DNA from: Faecalibacterium langellae
GTDB lineage: Bacteria > Bacillota > Clostridia > Oscillospirales > Ruminococcaceae
Direction: 5' to 3'
Length of the DNA: 64,000 nt
NCBI RefSeq assembly: GCF_002549775.1
Contig: NZ_NMTR01000021.1
Coordinates: 310,001-374,000 of the forward strand
The translations under genes and the position numbers were made by a program. The notes below the pieces were generated by a model. It did not search any database, was not told the DNA's origin, and saw only the letters and a list, made by a program, of their open reading frames with translations. Below, piece by piece: positions 21,229 to 29,635 of this stretch (position 1 is its first letter; every line of letters starts with the position of its first letter).

Positions 21229-21261
21229 AAGGCCTCGAAAGGTGGAATGTGGACAATACGG

Positions 21262-21450
21262 GTGACGCAAAGCGCCGGGCCACGCGGGTGACAGCCGCGA
21301 GGGTGACGAGGAGAGGAATCATCGAAAGATTCGGCGGATGTTTCTCCGGCTGAGGGCTAGACCAGCCGCAGAGAAGGGCAAAAAACGGCAGCGATACCGC
21401 AACAGATCCCTTCAAAGAAAGCCATACAAGAACATAAACTAATGACAAGA
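21262..21450 (+). ncRNA. glmS ribozyme: glmS ribozyme (glucosamine-6-phosphate-activated riboswitch)
   Basis: The conserved glmS ribozyme core is visible: AGCGCC with the expected cleavage site between A21271 and G21272, a P1 stem CCaCGCGG/CCGCGaGG around 21280-21304, then GACGAGG, ATCGA and TTCGGCGGATG in the P2 region, closed by TCTCCGGC (near 21350). Binding of GlcN6P would trigger self-cleavage and mRNA decay, so the downstream glmS is repressed by its own product. The core to about 21360 is well supported. The 3' boundary, with the variable P3/P4 helices, is approximate. Confidence 0.92.
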
Positions 21451-23375: not shown

Positions 23376-23414
23376 AAAGAGGACATCTTCTGAAGTTCAG
23401 AAGATGTCCTCTTT
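23376..23414. terminator. Bidirectional terminator between glmS and the export locus
   Basis: Perfect 19-bp inverted repeat, 23376-23394 with 23396-23414, flanked by an A-run on the left and CTTTG on the right. It serves both converging units. Confidence 0.9.
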
Positions 23415-23444: not shown

Positions 23445-24953
23445 TTACCAGAACCAGTACCGCTTCTTGAACGCGATGTAGGCCACGCCGATGATCACGA
23501 CCACCACGCCGCCTGCGATGAAGAAGGTCCAGTTGACGTTGGCGAACTTCAGGTTCTGGTTGGTCAGCAGGTAGCGGCCGGCTGTGTCTGCGGTGATGAT
23601 GCCGTCGGTGTAGCTGTTCAGGTACTGCCACTTGCCGGAGACCGTGTTGTACAGGTACAGGCGGGAGTAGGTGCTCACGTCCAGATCAATGCGCACCGAG
23701 CAGGGGAGGGCGTGGCCCTTGTCCAGCTCAAACTCAATGCCCTGATCGGTCTCGGTGAGGGTGAGCATGGTGTCCAGCTCACTGGTGGTGCTCTTGACGC
23801 CGCTGCCTGCGATCTGCATGGTGTAGCCGTCGCCCACGACGCACAGGGTCTTGCCGGTGGTGCGCAGCGCGTTGAGGATGTCACCGGTCACGGTGGGGAC
23901 CTCAGCCTGGGTGAAGACGATCTCGTTGTCCTCGCTGTCCTGGATGGCCTGGACCACCGGGTCCAGCGTGACGGAATTGTCGTCGTCGGTCGGCTCGCTG
24001 CTGCCATCCTCCGAGGAAGAAGACGCGGAGCGGTTGACGATGACCGTCACCATGGCGGACGCCGTGCCGTTGGAAACCGTGATGGAGGTGGCACCGGTGC
24101 CCACCGCTGTGATCACGCCGGACGGGCTGACCGTGGCGATGCTGCTGTTGGCAGACTTATAGGTGAACTTCTGGGAAGCCGAGGAAGGCGTTGCCTTGGC
24201 CGTCAGAGTGCGGGTGGCACCGGGCTTCAGCACCACATAAGAGGGGTCTACGGTAACGACCTGACCGCTGTTGGAACTGGTCGAGGTGGAACCCGTCTCC
24301 GTGCTGGGGATGCTGATGACGGTGACCTTCGTGGTGGCCGTCACCGAGCCGCAGGTGGCGGTGATGGTGGCGGTGCCGGGCGCAATGCCGGTGACGCGGC
24401 CAAAGTTGTTCACGGTGGCCACCTTTTCATTGGAGGAGGTCAGGGTGACGGTGGCATAGCTGGAAGCGGAGGAAGGCCGCACCTGCAGCTGTGCCGAGAC
24501 CGAGTTGCCAACATAAATGGTGTTGGAGGAGAGGGAAAGGTCCATCTCGGTGACGATCATGGAAGAATCCATGGAAACGGCGATGGTGTAGGCACAGATC
24601 TGGTTGCCGGCGGCTGCGGTGATGCGGGTGGTGCCCACGCCCACAGCCTGCACGACGCCGCTGTTGCTGACCGTCAGGATGGAAGTATCATCCGAAATGT
24701 AGACCACCGTGTCCGTGGTATTGCGGGGGCGCACCGTCGGGGACAGCTGCTGCGAAGAACCCAGCAGCATGTTGGCGGTGTAGCTGCCCGCGTCGATGCT
24801 TTCAGCGGGCACATCCTGATTCCACGGCAGGGTGACATTGCTCAGGGCAAGGCCCGTCAGCGGGGAGGCCGCCGAAGCGGAAACGGCGGTGCCGCCCACC
24901 AGCAGGCAGAGCACTGCGGCGCAGACTGCCAGTTTTTTTGCGGTTGATTTCAT
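23445..24953 (-). CDS. Secreted, membrane-anchored BIG2 (Ig-like) domain protein
   Basis: 502-residue surface protein. It has a Sec signal peptide (LAVCAAVLCLLVGG, ending near VSASA-A), then three or so BIG2 Ig-like domains at about 60-130, 135-215 and 225-310, each with the closing pattern V-x-G-x-G-T-x-x-I-T. A Ser/Glu/Asp linker follows (near 310-330), then a second globular region (about 340-465), a transmembrane helix (about 476-494) and a short basic/aromatic tail. No LPxTG motif is present. Last gene of the minus-strand export operon, 61 nt after hlyD, with SD AAAGAGGT. Its link with the exporter is inferred from position only. Confidence 0.82.
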   Translation of the reverse strand: MKSTAKKLAVCAAVLCLLVGGTAVSASAASPLTGLALSNVTLPWNQDVPAESIDAGSYTANMLLGSSQQLSPTVRPRNTTDTVVYISDDTSILTVSNSGVVQAVGVGTTRITAAAGNQICAYTIAVSMDSSMIVTEMDLSLSSNTIYVGNSVSAQLQVRPSSASSYATVTLTSSNEKVATVNNFGRVTGIAPGTATITATCGSVTATTKVTVISIPSTETGSTSTSSNSGQVVTVDPSYVVLKPGATRTLTAKATPSSASQKFTYKSANSSIATVSPSGVITAVGTGATSITVSNGTASAMVTVIVNRSASSSSEDGSSEPTDDDNSVTLDPVVQAIQDSEDNEIVFTQAEVPTVTGDILNALRTTGKTLCVVGDGYTMQIAGSGVKSTTSELDTMLTLTETDQGIEFELDKGHALPCSVRIDLDVSTYSRLYLYNTVSGKWQYLNSYTDGIITADTAGRYLLTNQNLKFANVNWTFFIAGGVVVVIIGVAYIAFKKRYWFW

Positions 24954-25014
24954 GTTTTGTATACCTCTTTGGGTGGTTTGAAACGGGCTGACAGCGCAGC
25001 ACCGGGGAAACGCC

Positions 25015-26127
25015 TTAGCGGAACAGGACGCCCAGAGCTTCCATCGCGTATTCGAAGTAAGTGACCTGGTCGTACTCCACGCGGGCGGTGACGCTCATAC
25101 CGTTGGAAAGGTCCACCTTGTCGCCGCTCTTGCTCACCACATAGGTGGTGTCGGGCTTGATGGTCATCTTGTAGTAGGAGCCGCTGGTGCTGGAGGTCAC
25201 GTCGCTGTCAATGGAAGTGACCGTACCGGTCAGGGTGCCGTAGGAATACTCGGAAAGGCCGGTGATGGCGATCTTGCACGGGTCGCCCACATGCAGCAGG
25301 GGGCGGTCGCTCACGGTGACCATGGCCACGATCTCCAGATCGTTGTTCTCGCTGGCGACGGTGGCCAGTGCGGAGCCGGCGCTGAGCACCATGCCCTCTT
25401 TATAAGGGCTGTCCATGTGGATGGTGCCGGAGGTGGGGGCATAGATGTAGTAATCGTTGGCACCGTTGTTCAGCGAGTCGATCTGCGCCTGGATGTTGTC
25501 CACATTGGTCTGTGCGCTGGTGATATTCTGGGAGATGGTCTGCATGGTGGAGTAATACAGCGCTTCCAGCTCGCTCTGGCTCTGCTCCATCAGGGTCTTG
25601 ATCTGGGTGTCGGAGTAACCGGCAGCCTGGTAGGCCGAAGCATCAAAGGTCTTCTGGGCCACCTGGCTCTTGTAGGTCTCATACTGGTAGTAGTAGGGCT
25701 GATCTTCGGGATCGGTCTCGCTGAAGTAGTTGGTGTCGTCCTGCACGCACTGCAAGAGCTTTGTGTACTGGTCCAGCTGGGTCTGGTAGATCTTTTTCTG
25801 GCTCTCCAGGTTTTCCTGCTGCATATCCAGGTCGGTGCTCTTGATGTGGGCCACGAGGTCGCCCTCGTTCACATAGCTGCCCTCGGAGATATACAGCTCG
25901 GTGATGGAGCCGGAATAGCTGGACATGATATAGGTCTTGTTGCTGGCCTGCACAGTGCCGGAGTTCTGGCTCACATAGATGCGGTTGGTCTTGGTGCTCC
26001 ACACCACCAGAAACGCCATGAACACGCCCACCAGGATGAGAAAAGCGTAGCCGAAGGGCGGCAGCTTTTTCTCCATCATGATGCGGCGATCCTGCAGGTC
26101 AGACAGGTTCTGAACATTCATCGTCAT
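25015..26127 (-). CDS. HlyD-family membrane fusion protein
   Basis: 370-residue periplasmic-adaptor-type protein of the kind that pairs with peptide-exporting ABC transporters in Gram-positives. A short cytoplasmic N-terminus is followed by one membrane helix (about 24-45), the first lipoyl half (SSYSGSITELYISEGSYVNE), a coiled-coil hairpin (about 95-225, with an acidic Tyr-rich stretch FSETDPEDQPYYYQ), the second lipoyl half (YAPTSGTI) and a beta-barrel domain. It starts only 2 nt after the stop of the upstream 149-residue gene, which implies coupling. It lacks the bacteriocin-specific ComB/LagE features I would recognise. Confidence 0.85.
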   Translation of the reverse strand: MTMNVQNLSDLQDRRIMMEKKLPPFGYAFLILVGVFMAFLVVWSTKTNRIYVSQNSGTVQASNKTYIMSSYSGSITELYISEGSYVNEGDLVAHIKSTDLDMQQENLESQKKIYQTQLDQYTKLLQCVQDDTNYFSETDPEDQPYYYQYETYKSQVAQKTFDASAYQAAGYSDTQIKTLMEQSQSELEALYYSTMQTISQNITSAQTNVDNIQAQIDSLNNGANDYYIYAPTSGTIHMDSPYKEGMVLSAGSALATVASENNDLEIVAMVTVSDRPLLHVGDPCKIAITGLSEYSYGTLTGTVTSIDSDVTSSTSGSYYKMTIKPDTTYVVSKSGDKVDLSNGMSVTARVEYDQVTYFEYAMEALGVLFR

Positions 26128-26129
26128 AA

Positions 26130-26579
26130 TTACTTGATCTCCATAAAGACATCCACAACGGCGTCATCATCGTCCTGGCGGACAAAGATGGTGTAAGTGT
26201 CGCCGGTGAGGGTCTGCTCGTTTTCAAATGCATGGATCTGCAGTTTGGAAGCTGCCAGCTGGCTCTGGCTCATGGGGCCGCAGTAATGGGCGTAGAGGCA
26301 GTTCTTCACGCGCAGCACAGCGTCCATGTGGTAGCCCTGCTCCATCTGGGGGATGAACTGGGTGGCCTGCTGCATGAGGATGAGCTTCATCTGGTGGTCC
26401 GGGGTAAAGGTGATGGCCTGCACCAGCGGGCCGATGGGCTGTGCGCCGTTGCTTTTCATGAAGTTCTGCATCTGGGTCAGCACCAGCTGCATGTTGCCCA
26501 TCTCCGTGGGCTGGACTTCGTGAGACAGAACATTGGTGAGCTTGAGCGTCTTGTTTTCAGCAACTTTGATCTCGTTCAT
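26130..26579 (-). CDS. Stand-alone GyrI-like/effector-binding-fold protein
   Basis: 149-residue protein without signal peptide or HTH. Two half-repeats fit the GyrI-like (SOUL/effector-binding) fold: one around residues 20-75 and one around 80-149, where AHYCGPMSQSQLAASKLQIH resembles the YRGPY...A...L segment and the end (YTIFVRQDDDDAVVDVFMEI) resembles the family's closing strands. Such domains bind small amphipathic or hydrophobic ligands, often in drug-responsive regulators. It is sandwiched between the C39 ABC transporter and hlyD. It could be a ligand sensor, a chaperone for the cargo or, less likely, the cargo itself. The family call is by eye and tentative. Confidence 0.55.
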   Translation of the reverse strand: MNEIKVAENKTLKLTNVLSHEVQPTEMGNMQLVLTQMQNFMKSNGAQPIGPLVQAITFTPDHQMKLILMQQATQFIPQMEQGYHMDAVLRVKNCLYAHYCGPMSQSQLAASKLQIHAFENEQTLTGDTYTIFVRQDDDDAVVDVFMEIK

Positions 26580-26655
26580 GATAGATACCCCTGTTTCTCA
26601 AATTTATTTTTTCGTTGGATATACAAAAGGAAAGCGGCGGCCCTGCCCAATAAAA

Positions 26656-26686
26656 TGTGCCCGGAGGCGGAACGCCCCCGGGCACA
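26656..26686 (-). terminator. Intrinsic terminator-like hairpin after the C39 ABC transporter
   Basis: TGTGCCCGGAGGCG and its near-perfect complement (one mismatch, 4-nt loop) occupy 26656-26686. On the minus strand the stem is followed by TTTTATT. It would split the export operon or attenuate its distal three genes. Confidence 0.7.
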
Positions 26687-26794
26687 CCATAGCGAGGCAT
26701 TGTCACCTGATTTGGCAAGTGCCCTTCCGATGAACATTCCGATCGGATCCGTGTGCTGCCCCTCAGCAGGGAAGCACCGGGGAGCGGGAATGCA

Positions 26795-29122
26795 TCAGTA
26801 GGTCATCGACTCGCCGTCGTCGTCTTCTTCCACGACTGCAGCCGCCACCGGCTTGGGGGCCTCTGCCTTCTTGCGGAAGATACCCTGCTGCATGTTCCAC
26901 AGCTCGTAATACTTGCCTTCCTTGGCCAGCAGCTCGTCGTGGGTGCCGCGCTCCACGATCTTGCCGTGATCCATCACCAGGATCAGGTCACAGTCACGGA
27001 CGGTGGACAGGCGGTGCGCCACGATCAGCATGGAACGATCTGCAAGCTCGTTGTAGATCATGTTGAAGATCAGGTTTTCGGTCGCGAAGTCCAGATTGCT
27101 GGTGGACTCATCCAGAATGTAGAGGTTGGAGTTCTTCAGGAAAGCGCGTGCCAGCGCGATGCGCTGCTTCTCGCCGCCGGAAAGGCCGTTGCCTGCTTCC
27201 TCCAGATAGGTATTGTACTGCAGGGGCAGGTGGCGGATGAAGTCGTGAGCGTCCGCTTTCTTGGCGGCCTCCTTCACTTCGTCCAGCGTTGCGTCCATGC
27301 GGGAAACGCGGATGTTGTCGTAGATGGTCTTGCTGAACAGCTCAATGTTCTGCGGCACATAGGAGATGGCGCGGCGCACCGAAGCGTTGGTATACTCGGC
27401 CAGGTTCACGCCGTTGATGTCGATCTCGCCATCCTCCGGCTCGTAGTACTTGAGCAGAAGCTTGGTGATGGTGGACTTGCCGCTGCCGCTGCTGCCCACC
27501 AGCGCGACCTTCTTGCCGGCCGGGATGGTGAAGCTGATGTGATCCAGCGCCGGGGCGCGGTTGCCGTAGCGGAAGGTGACGTCCTTGAACTCAATGTCGC
27601 CCTCGACCTTCGGCAGGTCGGTGCGGTCTTCATCGCCTGCCTGCTCGGAGGGGTAATCCATGATCTCGGTCAGACGCTTCATGGAGATACTGGCCTCCTG
27701 GATCTGCATCTGCAGACCGATCAGGTTGCTCAGCGGGGAAGTGAAGTAAGAGGAAAGGGTGCTGAAGGCCATGAAGCCGCCCAGCGTCATCTCGCCGTTC
27801 AGCACCTGGCTGATGCCCACATAGGTGGTCAGCATGCTGAAGCCGGTGGAGATAAAGGAGGAGATCAGGCCCTGGGTGCTGCTGATCTTGCTGGACCGCA
27901 GGCTGATCTTCAGGCTCTTGATGTACTCACGCTCGAGGTTGTCCATTTCGGTGTCCTCGTTGGCGTTGCACTTGACGGTCTCGATGCCGCGCAGGCTCTC
28001 GATCATCTGACTGTTCAGCGCAGCGGACTGCACCATGGTCTCCTCGTTGATCTTCTTGTAGGGCTGCTTGTAGATCAGCACCAGCAGGATGCTGACCAGC
28101 GCCATGAACAGGGAGATGGAGAACAGGGTGGAGTTCATGCGGAACAGGATGACGCCGGTGATGATGGCCATCGAGATATCCATGACCAGGCTCAGCGCGA
28201 TGCTGGTGAAGATGGATTTGATGGTGTTCGCATCCGAATAACGGGTGGTGATATCACCGGTCTTGCGGGTAGCGAAGAACTTCATGGGCAGCTTGAAGAT
28301 GTGCCCGAAGTAGCCCAGCATCAGCGGGATGTCGATCTTGATGGACAGATAGATCAGCACCCACTGCCGGACGAAGCCCACCAGCGTGTTCGTGATGCTC
28401 ACCAGACTGAACACGACGATCAATGTCACCAACAGGTTGCTTAGTCCGTATGGCAGCACTTCATCCATCAGGATCTTATTGAACATGGACGACGCGATGC
28501 CCAGGATCGTGACGATCAGCGAACCCAGGATGGCATACACAAAGAGCTTTTTCTGCGGCAGAAGCAGGTCGATGTACCGCTTCATCATGCCGCCCTTTTC
28601 GATCTTGCCGCCCTTGAACTCCGAGGTGGGGTTCAGCAGCAGCAGCACGCCGGTGAAGTTCTTGTAGAACTCGTCCAGGCTGATCTTTTTCAGCTCCGAG
28701 GCGGGGTCGCCAATGACGACGTAATCCTTGCACTTGTGCTTTTTGCCGTTCTTTTCGTCTTCCTTGACGGACTCGGCTTCTTTCAGCATGTGCTTGCGGC
28801 GCTCGGCGTCATCTTTGATCGTGGTCTTTTTGAAGACGACGACAAAGTGCGCCAGGCCCTGGTCGGTGATGACCTGGGCGATGCAGGGCAGGGAGAAGTC
28901 GCTCAGAAAATTCTCGCGGTCCACGCGGACGGCTGCTGTGGTGAAGCCCAGCTCATTCGCGGCCTTCTGCAAACCGACAAGGTTCGTGCCTTTCAGGTCA
29001 GTGCCCATCATGTCGCGCAGGCGGGTGATGGTAACTTCCTTTTTGTAATGGAGGCACACCATTGCGAGGCAGGCCGCCGCACAGTCGGTGGCGTCGTGCT
29101 GCCGGACGTAGGTATAACGCAT
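26795..29122 (-). CDS. Peptidase C39-containing ABC transporter (PCAT)
   Basis: 775-residue exporter that should cleave a double-glycine-type leader and export the peptide. The C39 domain carries Q8 and catalytic C14 in QHDATDCAAACLAM, H92 in AHFVVVF and D139 in GDPA. The His-Asp spacing of 47 residues is far above the roughly 16 known for this family, owing to a Lys/Glu-rich insertion at about 99-131. A six-helix ABC membrane domain follows (about 190-470). The ATPase has Walker A GSSGSGKST (543-551), signature LSGGE (647-651), Walker B LYILDE (667-672) and His703. The C-terminus is acidic. SD AAAGGAAG lies 8 nt upstream. No precursor gene was found nearby. Confidence 0.93.
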   Translation of the reverse strand: MRYTYVRQHDATDCAAACLAMVCLHYKKEVTITRLRDMMGTDLKGTNLVGLQKAANELGFTTAAVRVDRENFLSDFSLPCIAQVITDQGLAHFVVVFKKTTIKDDAERRKHMLKEAESVKEDEKNGKKHKCKDYVVIGDPASELKKISLDEFYKNFTGVLLLLNPTSEFKGGKIEKGGMMKRYIDLLLPQKKLFVYAILGSLIVTILGIASSMFNKILMDEVLPYGLSNLLVTLIVVFSLVSITNTLVGFVRQWVLIYLSIKIDIPLMLGYFGHIFKLPMKFFATRKTGDITTRYSDANTIKSIFTSIALSLVMDISMAIITGVILFRMNSTLFSISLFMALVSILLVLIYKQPYKKINEETMVQSAALNSQMIESLRGIETVKCNANEDTEMDNLEREYIKSLKISLRSSKISSTQGLISSFISTGFSMLTTYVGISQVLNGEMTLGGFMAFSTLSSYFTSPLSNLIGLQMQIQEASISMKRLTEIMDYPSEQAGDEDRTDLPKVEGDIEFKDVTFRYGNRAPALDHISFTIPAGKKVALVGSSGSGKSTITKLLLKYYEPEDGEIDINGVNLAEYTNASVRRAISYVPQNIELFSKTIYDNIRVSRMDATLDEVKEAAKKADAHDFIRHLPLQYNTYLEEAGNGLSGGEKQRIALARAFLKNSNLYILDESTSNLDFATENLIFNMIYNELADRSMLIVAHRLSTVRDCDLILVMDHGKIVERGTHDELLAKEGKYYELWNMQQGIFRKKAEAPKPVAAAVVEEDDDGESMTY

Positions 29123-29235
29123 AGATGCTTCCTTTGACTATATACAAATTTATTCAAACACAGCAGCTCCGCCGCCCGGGACCGGACAGCGAAAACTGCG
29201 GATCTGACCAAGAGAAAATGAGCCGCGCCGTTTTG

Positions 29236-29300
29236 ACAGCAAGAGACCGGTGCCTGTGCTCCGGCCTGCAAAGAACCAGAGCATAGCACCGGTCTGCTGT
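29236..29300 (-). other. Long hairpin in the 5' leader of the PCAT operon
   Basis: AGACCGGTGC (29244-29253) pairs with GCACCGGTCT (29286-29295). The stem extends inwards (TGTGCT/AGCATA) and outwards (ACAGC/GCTGT) with small bulges, about 20 pairs in all. There is no T-run on either strand. It sits about midway in the predicted 250-nt leader between the promoter at 29383-29411 and the start codon at 29122. The rest of 29123-29520 holds no gene I can support. Confidence 0.65.
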
Positions 29301-29382
29301 GATCAAAAGAAGGGAGCGCCTGCCCTTTGATTCCTGTGCAGACTTTTGGAAAAGTGTACACAAATCCCAAAAGCTCATAGGC

Positions 29383-29411
29383 AGTATACCACAATATGAC
29401 AGTATCTTCAA
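29383..29411 (-). promoter_or_regulatory. Promoter of the PCAT export operon
   Basis: On the minus strand TTGAAG (29411-29406), 17-bp spacer, TATACT (29388-29383) with the extended TGG before it. It predicts a transcript starting near 29376. Confidence 0.72.
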
Positions 29412-29558: not shown

Positions 29559-29635
29559 TGGCGCCTCTTGCCTGACTCGAACAGGCGACACCCTGATTAA
29601 CAGTCAGGTGCTCTAACCGACTGAGCTAAAGAGGC
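29559..29635 (-). tRNA. trnN: tRNA-Asn (anticodon GTT)
   Basis: Full cloverleaf on the minus strand: acceptor GCCTCTT/AAGAGGC, D-arm AGCTCAGTCGGTTAGAGC, anticodon stem CCTGA/TCAGG with loop CTGTTAA (GTT), T-loop GTTCGAGTC and an encoded CCA. 77 nt. It stands alone between its own promoter and terminator. Confidence 0.97.

Follow-up and report, generated by a model that had tools for sequence, protein, structure and literature searches.

The stretch of DNA analyzed here (64,000 nucleotides of Faecalibacterium langellae, G000:C11:310001-374000 in our numbering; hereafter the window) belongs to a genome of 2.82 Mb in 78 contigs. According to the open reading frame (ORF) list, its minus strand carries a peptidase-containing ATP-binding cassette (ABC) transporter (PCAT), a 149-residue protein (P149), an HlyD-type adaptor, and a protein with Big_2 domains, in that order (Table 1), as an earlier sequence-only reading had placed them. 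Pfam detected in the PCAT the C39 peptidase domain PF03412 (112.6 bits, cut-off 22), together with PF00664 and PF00005 above their cut-offs. The C39 domain is joined to ABC membrane and ATPase domains, as defines the class, and NCBIfam placed the protein above the TIGR01193 cut-off (581.6 vs. 523.85 bits). The PCAT is expected to cut and export substrates with a double-glycine (GG) leader, and matching leaders are encoded in the genome. The adaptor scored 67.4 bits against HlyD_3 (cut-off 22.2) and has the N-terminal membrane helix of HlyD-type proteins; the narrower NCBIfam models TIGR01843 and TIGR01000 matched it below their cut-offs. The Big_2 protein matched PF02368 with 116.6 bits in three stretches (cut-off 22.8). 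By hydropathy only, it bears the N-terminal signal-like helix claimed for it earlier and a C-terminal membrane helix.

The sequence-only reading had noticed no GG-leader precursor beside this exporter. A window scan for leader-like starts and two whole-genome motif scans agreed, yielding no plausible GG-leader gene in the window. The scan of starts, which is blind to leaders with Thr at -4, returned two weak candidates, both unlike the leader of the genus. The motif scans gave a single match inside the window, mid-way in a long ORF. Inspection of the ORF list showed no immunity-like gene between the flanking terminator-like sites. The precursor and immunity gene that stand beside the transporter in a classical class II bacteriocin cassette were not found at the locus.

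MAM, a known anti-inflammatory protein, has been published with the Faecalibacterium cluster. In the part of PMC8836110 available, many Faecalibacterium strains keep the PCAT near a three-ORF cluster that includes one HlyD and one Ig-domain ORF; mam is near the PCAT in three named strains, whereas the other genomes under comparison have the PCAT in a different region. The accessible part of PMC12184118 uses modelling and proteomics to argue for cleavage of MAM behind Gly20-Gly21 and for its export through the PCAT, and ranks MAM first in abundance among the envelope proteins of F. duncaniae. We located MAM in a sample of 31 Faecalibacterium genomes by the DNA pattern of its start, MMMPAN. The pattern was present in the same 26 genomes as P149 and absent from the same five (Fisher test for MAM vs. 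the cluster, 5.9e-6, kinship ignored); three of these five cluster-free genomes are < 90% complete. Two matches were not MAM, one lying inside an ABC transporter ORF (G006) and one belonging to a different cargo (G015), and each of these genomes carries a genuine MAM besides. The mam gene of our genome lies at G000:C11:409439, separated from the PCAT by ~70 kb and from the end of the window by 35 kb. The PCAT, the three-ORF cluster, and mam of the published export region are all present in the genome, and mam is not adjacent to the PCAT.

The PCAT-P149-HlyD-Big_2 order proved intact in 26/26 P149-bearing congeners. The sequence-only reading had staked itself against homologues flanked by a normal bacteriocin cassette and not conserved together. 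The four genes did stay together; a GG-leader gene is nevertheless among them in 18/26, where the gap between the PCAT and P149 holds one or two mam genes. In the other eight, ours included, the gap is empty and mam lies elsewhere. All eight empty-slot genomes have mam next to spoIIGA and sigE, with TypA upstream of the cluster. In the filled-gap genomes, spoIIGA lies upstream of the cluster in 15/18; the remaining three stretches (L061, L064, L065) stop near a contig end. The eight genomes with unlinked mam form one clade in the HlyD tree (support 96/93), so the unlinking probably occurred once. An origin of the relocated mam from the second, upstream copy seen in G002, G012, and G015 found no support, since the MAM tree puts those copies with the slot copies and apart from the relocated ones. 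The loci L055 and L065 (G002, G012) have MAM leaders four residues shorter than usual (MMMPANFSAVNAEVVYGG) and, upstream of the PCAT, a further copy of mam. A precursor gene in the window could have been missed through assembly error in a draft of 78 contigs. The same empty slot, however, occurs in eight genomes, five of them one-contig assemblies (G017, G027-G030), all eight have mam elsewhere, and the mam gene at C11:409439 refutes the idea here. We regard such an error as extremely improbable.

Table 1. Features of the export locus, in window coordinates
Feature	Position	Strand	Basis or remark
PCAT, 775 residues: C39 peptidase, ABC transmembrane and ATPase domains	26795..29122	-	ORF list, Pfam, NCBIfam
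Charged insertion of ~31 residues within the C39 domain of the PCAT	28739..28831	-	alignment
PCAT-P149 gap, empty in this genome, best read as an emptied cargo slot; holds mam in 18/26 congeners	26580..26794	-	
Conserved terminator- or attenuator-like hairpin with a T-rich stretch after it	26655..26687 (about)	-	kept in 8/8 empty-slot genomes
P149, 149 residues, without signal or membrane helix, predicted GyrI-like fold	26130..26579	-	ORF list, structure prediction, hydropathy
HlyD-type adaptor, 370 residues, single N-terminal membrane helix	25015..26127	-	ORF list, Pfam, hydropathy
Big_2 protein, 502 residues: signal-like helix, Big_2 domains, C-terminal membrane helix, KKRYWFW tail	23445..24953	-	
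Terminal YWFW codons of the Big_2 gene	23448..23459	-	
Promoter-like site upstream of the PCAT	29383..29411	-	9/12 matches, TG before the second hexamer
Terminator-like hairpin with T-run, downstream of the Big_2 gene	23376..23414	-	
tRNA-Asn upstream of the PCAT	29559..29635	-	same place in 25/26 cluster-bearing congeners

Further GG-leader proteins were found in the genome. The motif E-[hydrophobic]-x-Y-x-x-G-[GA] gave nine matches, vs. one for the reversed pattern. Five of the nine are leader-like starts of small ORFs (MAM, C11:488014, C44:127280, and the tandem pair C66:86352 and 86783), and four lie within longer unrelated ORFs. A sixth leader ORF, with a leader ending in EDEQMQVSGG, adjoins the C11:488014 gene. 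At least five GG-leader proteins of 77-151 residues are encoded besides MAM, which bears out the earlier suggestion that the cargo is encoded elsewhere. A second pattern, E-[hydrophobic]-x-x-V-x-G-[GA], produced 31 matches vs. three reversed; 30 of the 31 had loci and were read, and, MAM aside, none was convincing.

Across the genus, the EEMxYxxGG motif, which excludes MAM, occurred in 25/26 cluster-bearing vs. 1/5 cluster-free genomes (Fisher test, 7.7e-4, kinship again ignored), and its reversed control had 0 matches in the 31 genomes. All 66 distinct EEM-type matches that we read lie in ORFs of 73-156 residues, and BLAST divides their mature parts into groups of 35, 17, 9, 2, 2, and 1. Agreement at E, E, M, Y, G, and G counts as no evidence, since the motif itself prescribes these residues. 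At the free positions, Pro stands at -18 in 66/66 and Tyr or Phe at -15 in ~95%. Leaders of related modules outside the genus (described below; identical leaders counted once, one L264 ORF with a different leader excluded) have Pro at -18 in 22/22. Pro at -18 and Tyr or Phe at -15 recur in this set and in most MAM leaders, a comparison made on all but one of the 39 MAM proteins (G021, with its GG-less leader). Neither MAM nor nine of the clients scored above the cut-off of any family in Pfam or NCBIfam (ten proteins against each). With 20 bits, the client L153 came just below the cut-off of the class IIb model lactobin A/cerein 7B (21.5 bits); L153 and L180 (G022, G016) are Gly- and Ala-rich clients of 96-99 residues.

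The PCAT was the one C39 protein found in its own genome. The C39 family was detected in 27/31 genus genomes: the 26 cluster-bearing ones, with one protein each, and G020, where the match is weak and lies in a 293-residue frame. The C39 match comprises two stretches of one ORF in our genome and two neighbouring stretches in the other cluster-bearing congeners. This split, seen in 26/26, fits an insertion of ~31 residues (residues about 98-128) that is missing from all seven outside-genus PCATs included in the alignment. The insertion might tune leader choice or contact P149. In G028, the PCAT match (L076:6563-8889) spans two reading frames meeting near residue 191.

The P149 alignment served for a pattern-based scan across the species genomes of GTDB, which returned 34 loci, 19 of them titled Faecalibacterium. 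The titles of the other 15 name Lachnospiraceae, Oscillospiraceae, Acetivibrio alkalicellulosi (this record carries an UNVERIFIED_CONTAM flag), Pseudoflavonifractor, Roseburia, further Clostridia, an unnamed bacterium, and a Coriobacteriales metagenome-assembled genome (MAG). Among genomes sampled from the family, P149 was found in 9/297 (four of this genus, one weak fragment), and among those sampled from the class in 10/391 (five weak, under 60 bits). We examined 29 outside loci, 21 of which have a close P149 (two genomes supply two loci each). In these 21, the PCAT lies upstream in 13/14 with enough sequence, HlyD comes next in 17/20, and the Big_2 protein is present in 11/14 with enough sequence. 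A GG-leader ORF, typically with the leader MEMCYDGALVMPSSYAVMSEEEMTYVEGG, occurs in 17/21, 12 of them between the PCAT and P149 (the L228 cargo was counted here from its coordinates, the script having scored it 'elsewhere'). Since the outside modules that have cargo mostly carry it between the PCAT and P149, the likeliest reading of the gap at 26580-26794 is a cargo slot that has been emptied. The earlier idea that P149 or the Big_2 protein might itself be an unusual client was abandoned, because both lack a GG leader and both are constant in modules with other GG-leader cargo.

The remaining eight outside loci have distant or cut P149 matches. L255 retains PCAT-P149-HlyD, L260 has its PCAT on the opposite strand, and L231 and L265 are contig-edge fragments. 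L256-L259, all of one genus, form a small control: their P149-like proteins are distant, no PCAT adjoins them, and the same script found no leader ORF. The neighbours in L257 are presumably dockerin-like, judged by eye. One genome, G543, has two copies of the module (L254, L253) ~74 kb apart, the Big_2 gene of one being in pieces.

These results bear on whether the cluster exports MAM only, with the other GG-leader ORFs being relics or using another route. MAM is the client argued for in print, and the presence patterns of MAM and P149 agree in 31/31 genomes. A second C39 transporter was not found in the genome, however, and the other leaders, present in 25/26 cluster-bearing genomes, share motif-free positions with MAM and resemble the cargo leaders within the outside-genus modules. 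An exporter restricted to MAM is therefore unlikely.

P149 matched no Pfam or NCBIfam family above the cut-off, and DUF5085 (PF16895) was rejected as its family at 16.6 of 30 bits. An earlier model from genus sequences only had a predicted local distance difference test score (pLDDT) of 66.7. Foldseek ranked GyrI-like proteins first for it (template modelling score, TM, about 0.37), with no match at E <= 0.001. We replaced it with an AlphaFold2 model built with outside relatives, from 31 diverse sequences, which reached a pLDDT of 94.3 and a predicted TM (pTM) of 0.87. Foldseek then returned CtR107 (E 2e-7 to 1e-6, TM up to 0.74), followed by BmrR, EcmrR, STM3175, and CtaZ, and lower-ranked SOUL/heme-binding proteins. 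In total, 40 PDB chains matched at E <= 0.001, most of those listed being GyrI-like domain proteins. P149 is predicted to adopt the GyrI-like fold; the earlier GyrI-like label holds for the predicted structure and fails at the Pfam sequence cut-off. Known members of this fold bind small hydrophobic molecules.

Hydropathy revealed no membrane helix in P149, and its 149 residues make up one fold with no DNA-binding domain. A ligand-sensing or resistance-type role would fit the nearest solved fold relatives, as BmrR, EcmrR, STM3175, and CtaZ bind small hydrophobic molecules or confer drug self-resistance; the missing DNA-binding domain speaks against it. Immunity to the cargo is the other alternative to an escort. 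Because a single P149 stays in front of HlyD irrespective of the cargo, a general helper of the machine is more likely than immunity to one product. Overall, sensing, resistance, or immunity functions appear somewhat unlikely, and we tentatively consider it possible that P149 is a cytosolic escort of precursors.

The C-terminus of the Big_2 protein consists of its last helix, basic residues, and YWFW in 26/26 congeners and in nine outside loci. This count leaves out L229 (cut by a contig end) and L253 (Big_2 gene in pieces, tail not found). In the Coriobacteriales locus, HWFW replaces YWFW. Searching the class for YWFW ahead of a stop-like codon gave matches in 85/391 genomes, and the reversed control also matched several. 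Among the 30 YWFW loci listed, there were two in-frame tails with a membrane helix, both in P149-bearing genomes. A literature search pairing 'YWFW' with 'C-terminal' found no paper in the library searched. From the topology of the Big_2 protein, the tail is expected on the cytosolic side of the membrane, together with P149 and the ATPase, and it would dock on a partner there. Alternatively, its place beside the exporter may have no functional meaning, the protein being a common surface protein exported by Sec, or a client; it carries a signal-like helix of its own, and Big_2 domains are frequent in surface proteins. But it lacks a GG leader, follows HlyD in 26/26 congeners, is present in 11/14 outside loci with enough sequence, and conserves the YWFW tail, which makes a bystander unlikely. 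The role of a membrane-anchored scaffold, which we propose for it, is a tentative one.

The sequence-only reading had the four genes read from one promoter. The promoter-like site upstream of the PCAT is indeed conserved in the eight aligned genomes sharing the empty-slot arrangement; a single transcript is unproved, and a hairpin lies between the PCAT and P149 genes. Its best 45-nt folds range from -23.8 to -31.3 kcal/mol across 8/8 empty-slot genomes. As judged from its sequence, this hairpin could end or dampen transcription. Its conservation implies that the PCAT may be expressed at a level other than that of the P149, HlyD, and Big_2 genes.

With these observations in hand, we propose that the locus is the chromosomal core of a GG-protein export machine whose cargo is unlinked (probability about 0.6); within it, P149 would tentatively be an escort and the Big_2 protein a scaffold. 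The proposal draws on what can be read from the DNA: gene order, domains, the single C39 transporter, the leader family, co-occurrence, the outside module, and the YWFW tail. The precursors, namely MAM and five or more further small proteins (77-151 residues), would be made elsewhere in the genome with leaders ending in E-[ML]-x-Y-x-x-G-G or similar. P149 would keep hydrophobic precursors export-ready in the cytosol or pass them to the PCAT. The C39 domain would cleave after GG, and the ABC part with the HlyD adaptor would carry the remainder out to the envelope; cleavage and export of each client are presumed in this scheme. The Big_2 protein, held by its C-terminal helix, would scaffold the machine or its product at the surface, with its basic-YWFW tail docking on P149 or the PCAT.

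Several findings weigh against this proposal. Relatedness among the genomes inflates the co-occurrence statistics. G024 (79% complete) has the cluster and MAM, yet no EEM-type leader. G025 (L155; 77% complete) has an EEM-type leader ORF, and neither P149 nor a C39 protein was found in it; the cluster may be missing from its assembly. The MAM leader of G021 (L071:7683-8021) continues without GG and the residues that follow it; this GG-less mam is a natural exception or an assembly fault. Outside the genus, the genes of L230 (a Roseburia MAG) are reordered and no Big_2 protein was found there, and in L227 and L232, P149 is broken or short, with HlyD and the Big_2 protein not found. The hairpin after the PCAT gene speaks against a single simple operon. 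PF06445, the GyrI-like family, was unlisted for P149 at E 0.1, and the relative L220 reached 17.4 of 26 bits. Finally, the published link between MAM and the PCAT, in the available part of PMC12184118, consists of modelling and proteomics.

A broader version of the proposal is possible, although we would not call it probable. Here, a dedicated machine for the export and display of GG proteins, made up of the PCAT, a GyrI-like escort, HlyD, and a Big_2 protein whose cytosolic YWFW tail docks in the GyrI-like pocket, would extend across several Clostridia families and reach Coriobacteriia. In Faecalibacterium, it would act as the central exporter of unlinked GG-leader proteins, including MAM.

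The closest known system is the MAM-PCAT region itself (PMC8836110, PMC12184118), which shares the genus, the PCAT, HlyD, and Ig-domain genes, and the GG-leader MAM, with mam sometimes distant. As far as the available parts of these accounts go, they assign no domain to the third ORF, name no GG client besides MAM, describe MAM as genus-exclusive, and mention neither an outside-genus module nor the YWFW tail; we add the predicted GyrI-like fold and further clients. ComAB, BlpAB, and RtgAB, in the accessible portion of PMC7018657, likewise combine a C39-ABC exporter with one accessory protein (HlyD/ComB-type) for several GG peptides; they belong to the exporters that handle class II bacteriocins and pheromones. 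The rtg locus, as presented there, has named GG peptide genes at the locus, whereas here the cargo is unlinked and the core adds P149 and the Big_2-YWFW protein. A GyrI-like gene, rtgX, appears in the rtg locus table as well; pneumococcal rtgX may be a precedent for pairing a GyrI-like protein with a PCAT. LahT of Lachnospiraceae C6A11, according to the part of PMC6363468 available, is similarly one tolerant C39 peptidase serving many precursors with a conserved leader, but there the leaders are of the Nif11 type and the cargo genes sit together in a lanthipeptide operon. The GyrI-like/SOUL proteins CtR107, BmrR, EcmrR, CtaZ, and STM3175 share the predicted fold of P149; unlike them, P149 has no DNA-binding domain, is linked to an exporter, and falls below the Pfam sequence cut-off.

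The puzzle of the missing precursor is answered by MAM and the other GG-leader genes elsewhere in the genome, the MAM part being largely in print. According to our literature search, the wider client set, the outside-genus module with its slot cargo, the GyrI-like fold predicted for the third ORF, and the YWFW tail are apparently new. An atlas of gut class II bacteriocins, of which a preview was available (PMC12648078), may already include some of these precursors. In the accessible parts of the published accounts, the route of MAM to the envelope is unproved and two of the fixed parts of the exporter are uncharacterized; if the proposed machine is real, the exporter gains these parts and serves a wider protein set. 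Some of its clients may be two-peptide bacteriocins, and some might act against bacteria. Related modules and clients are easy to find by means of the YWFW tail and the leader motif.

In our genome, TypA lies beyond the tRNA-Asn gene and GlmS beyond the Big_2 end. In the one cluster-bearing congener where the tRNA-Asn was not seen at its usual place, the stretch stops at a contig end. A glmS ribozyme/riboswitch (RF00234, 70.2 bits, gathering 37) was detected just upstream of glmS, on the plus strand at window positions 21260-21424.

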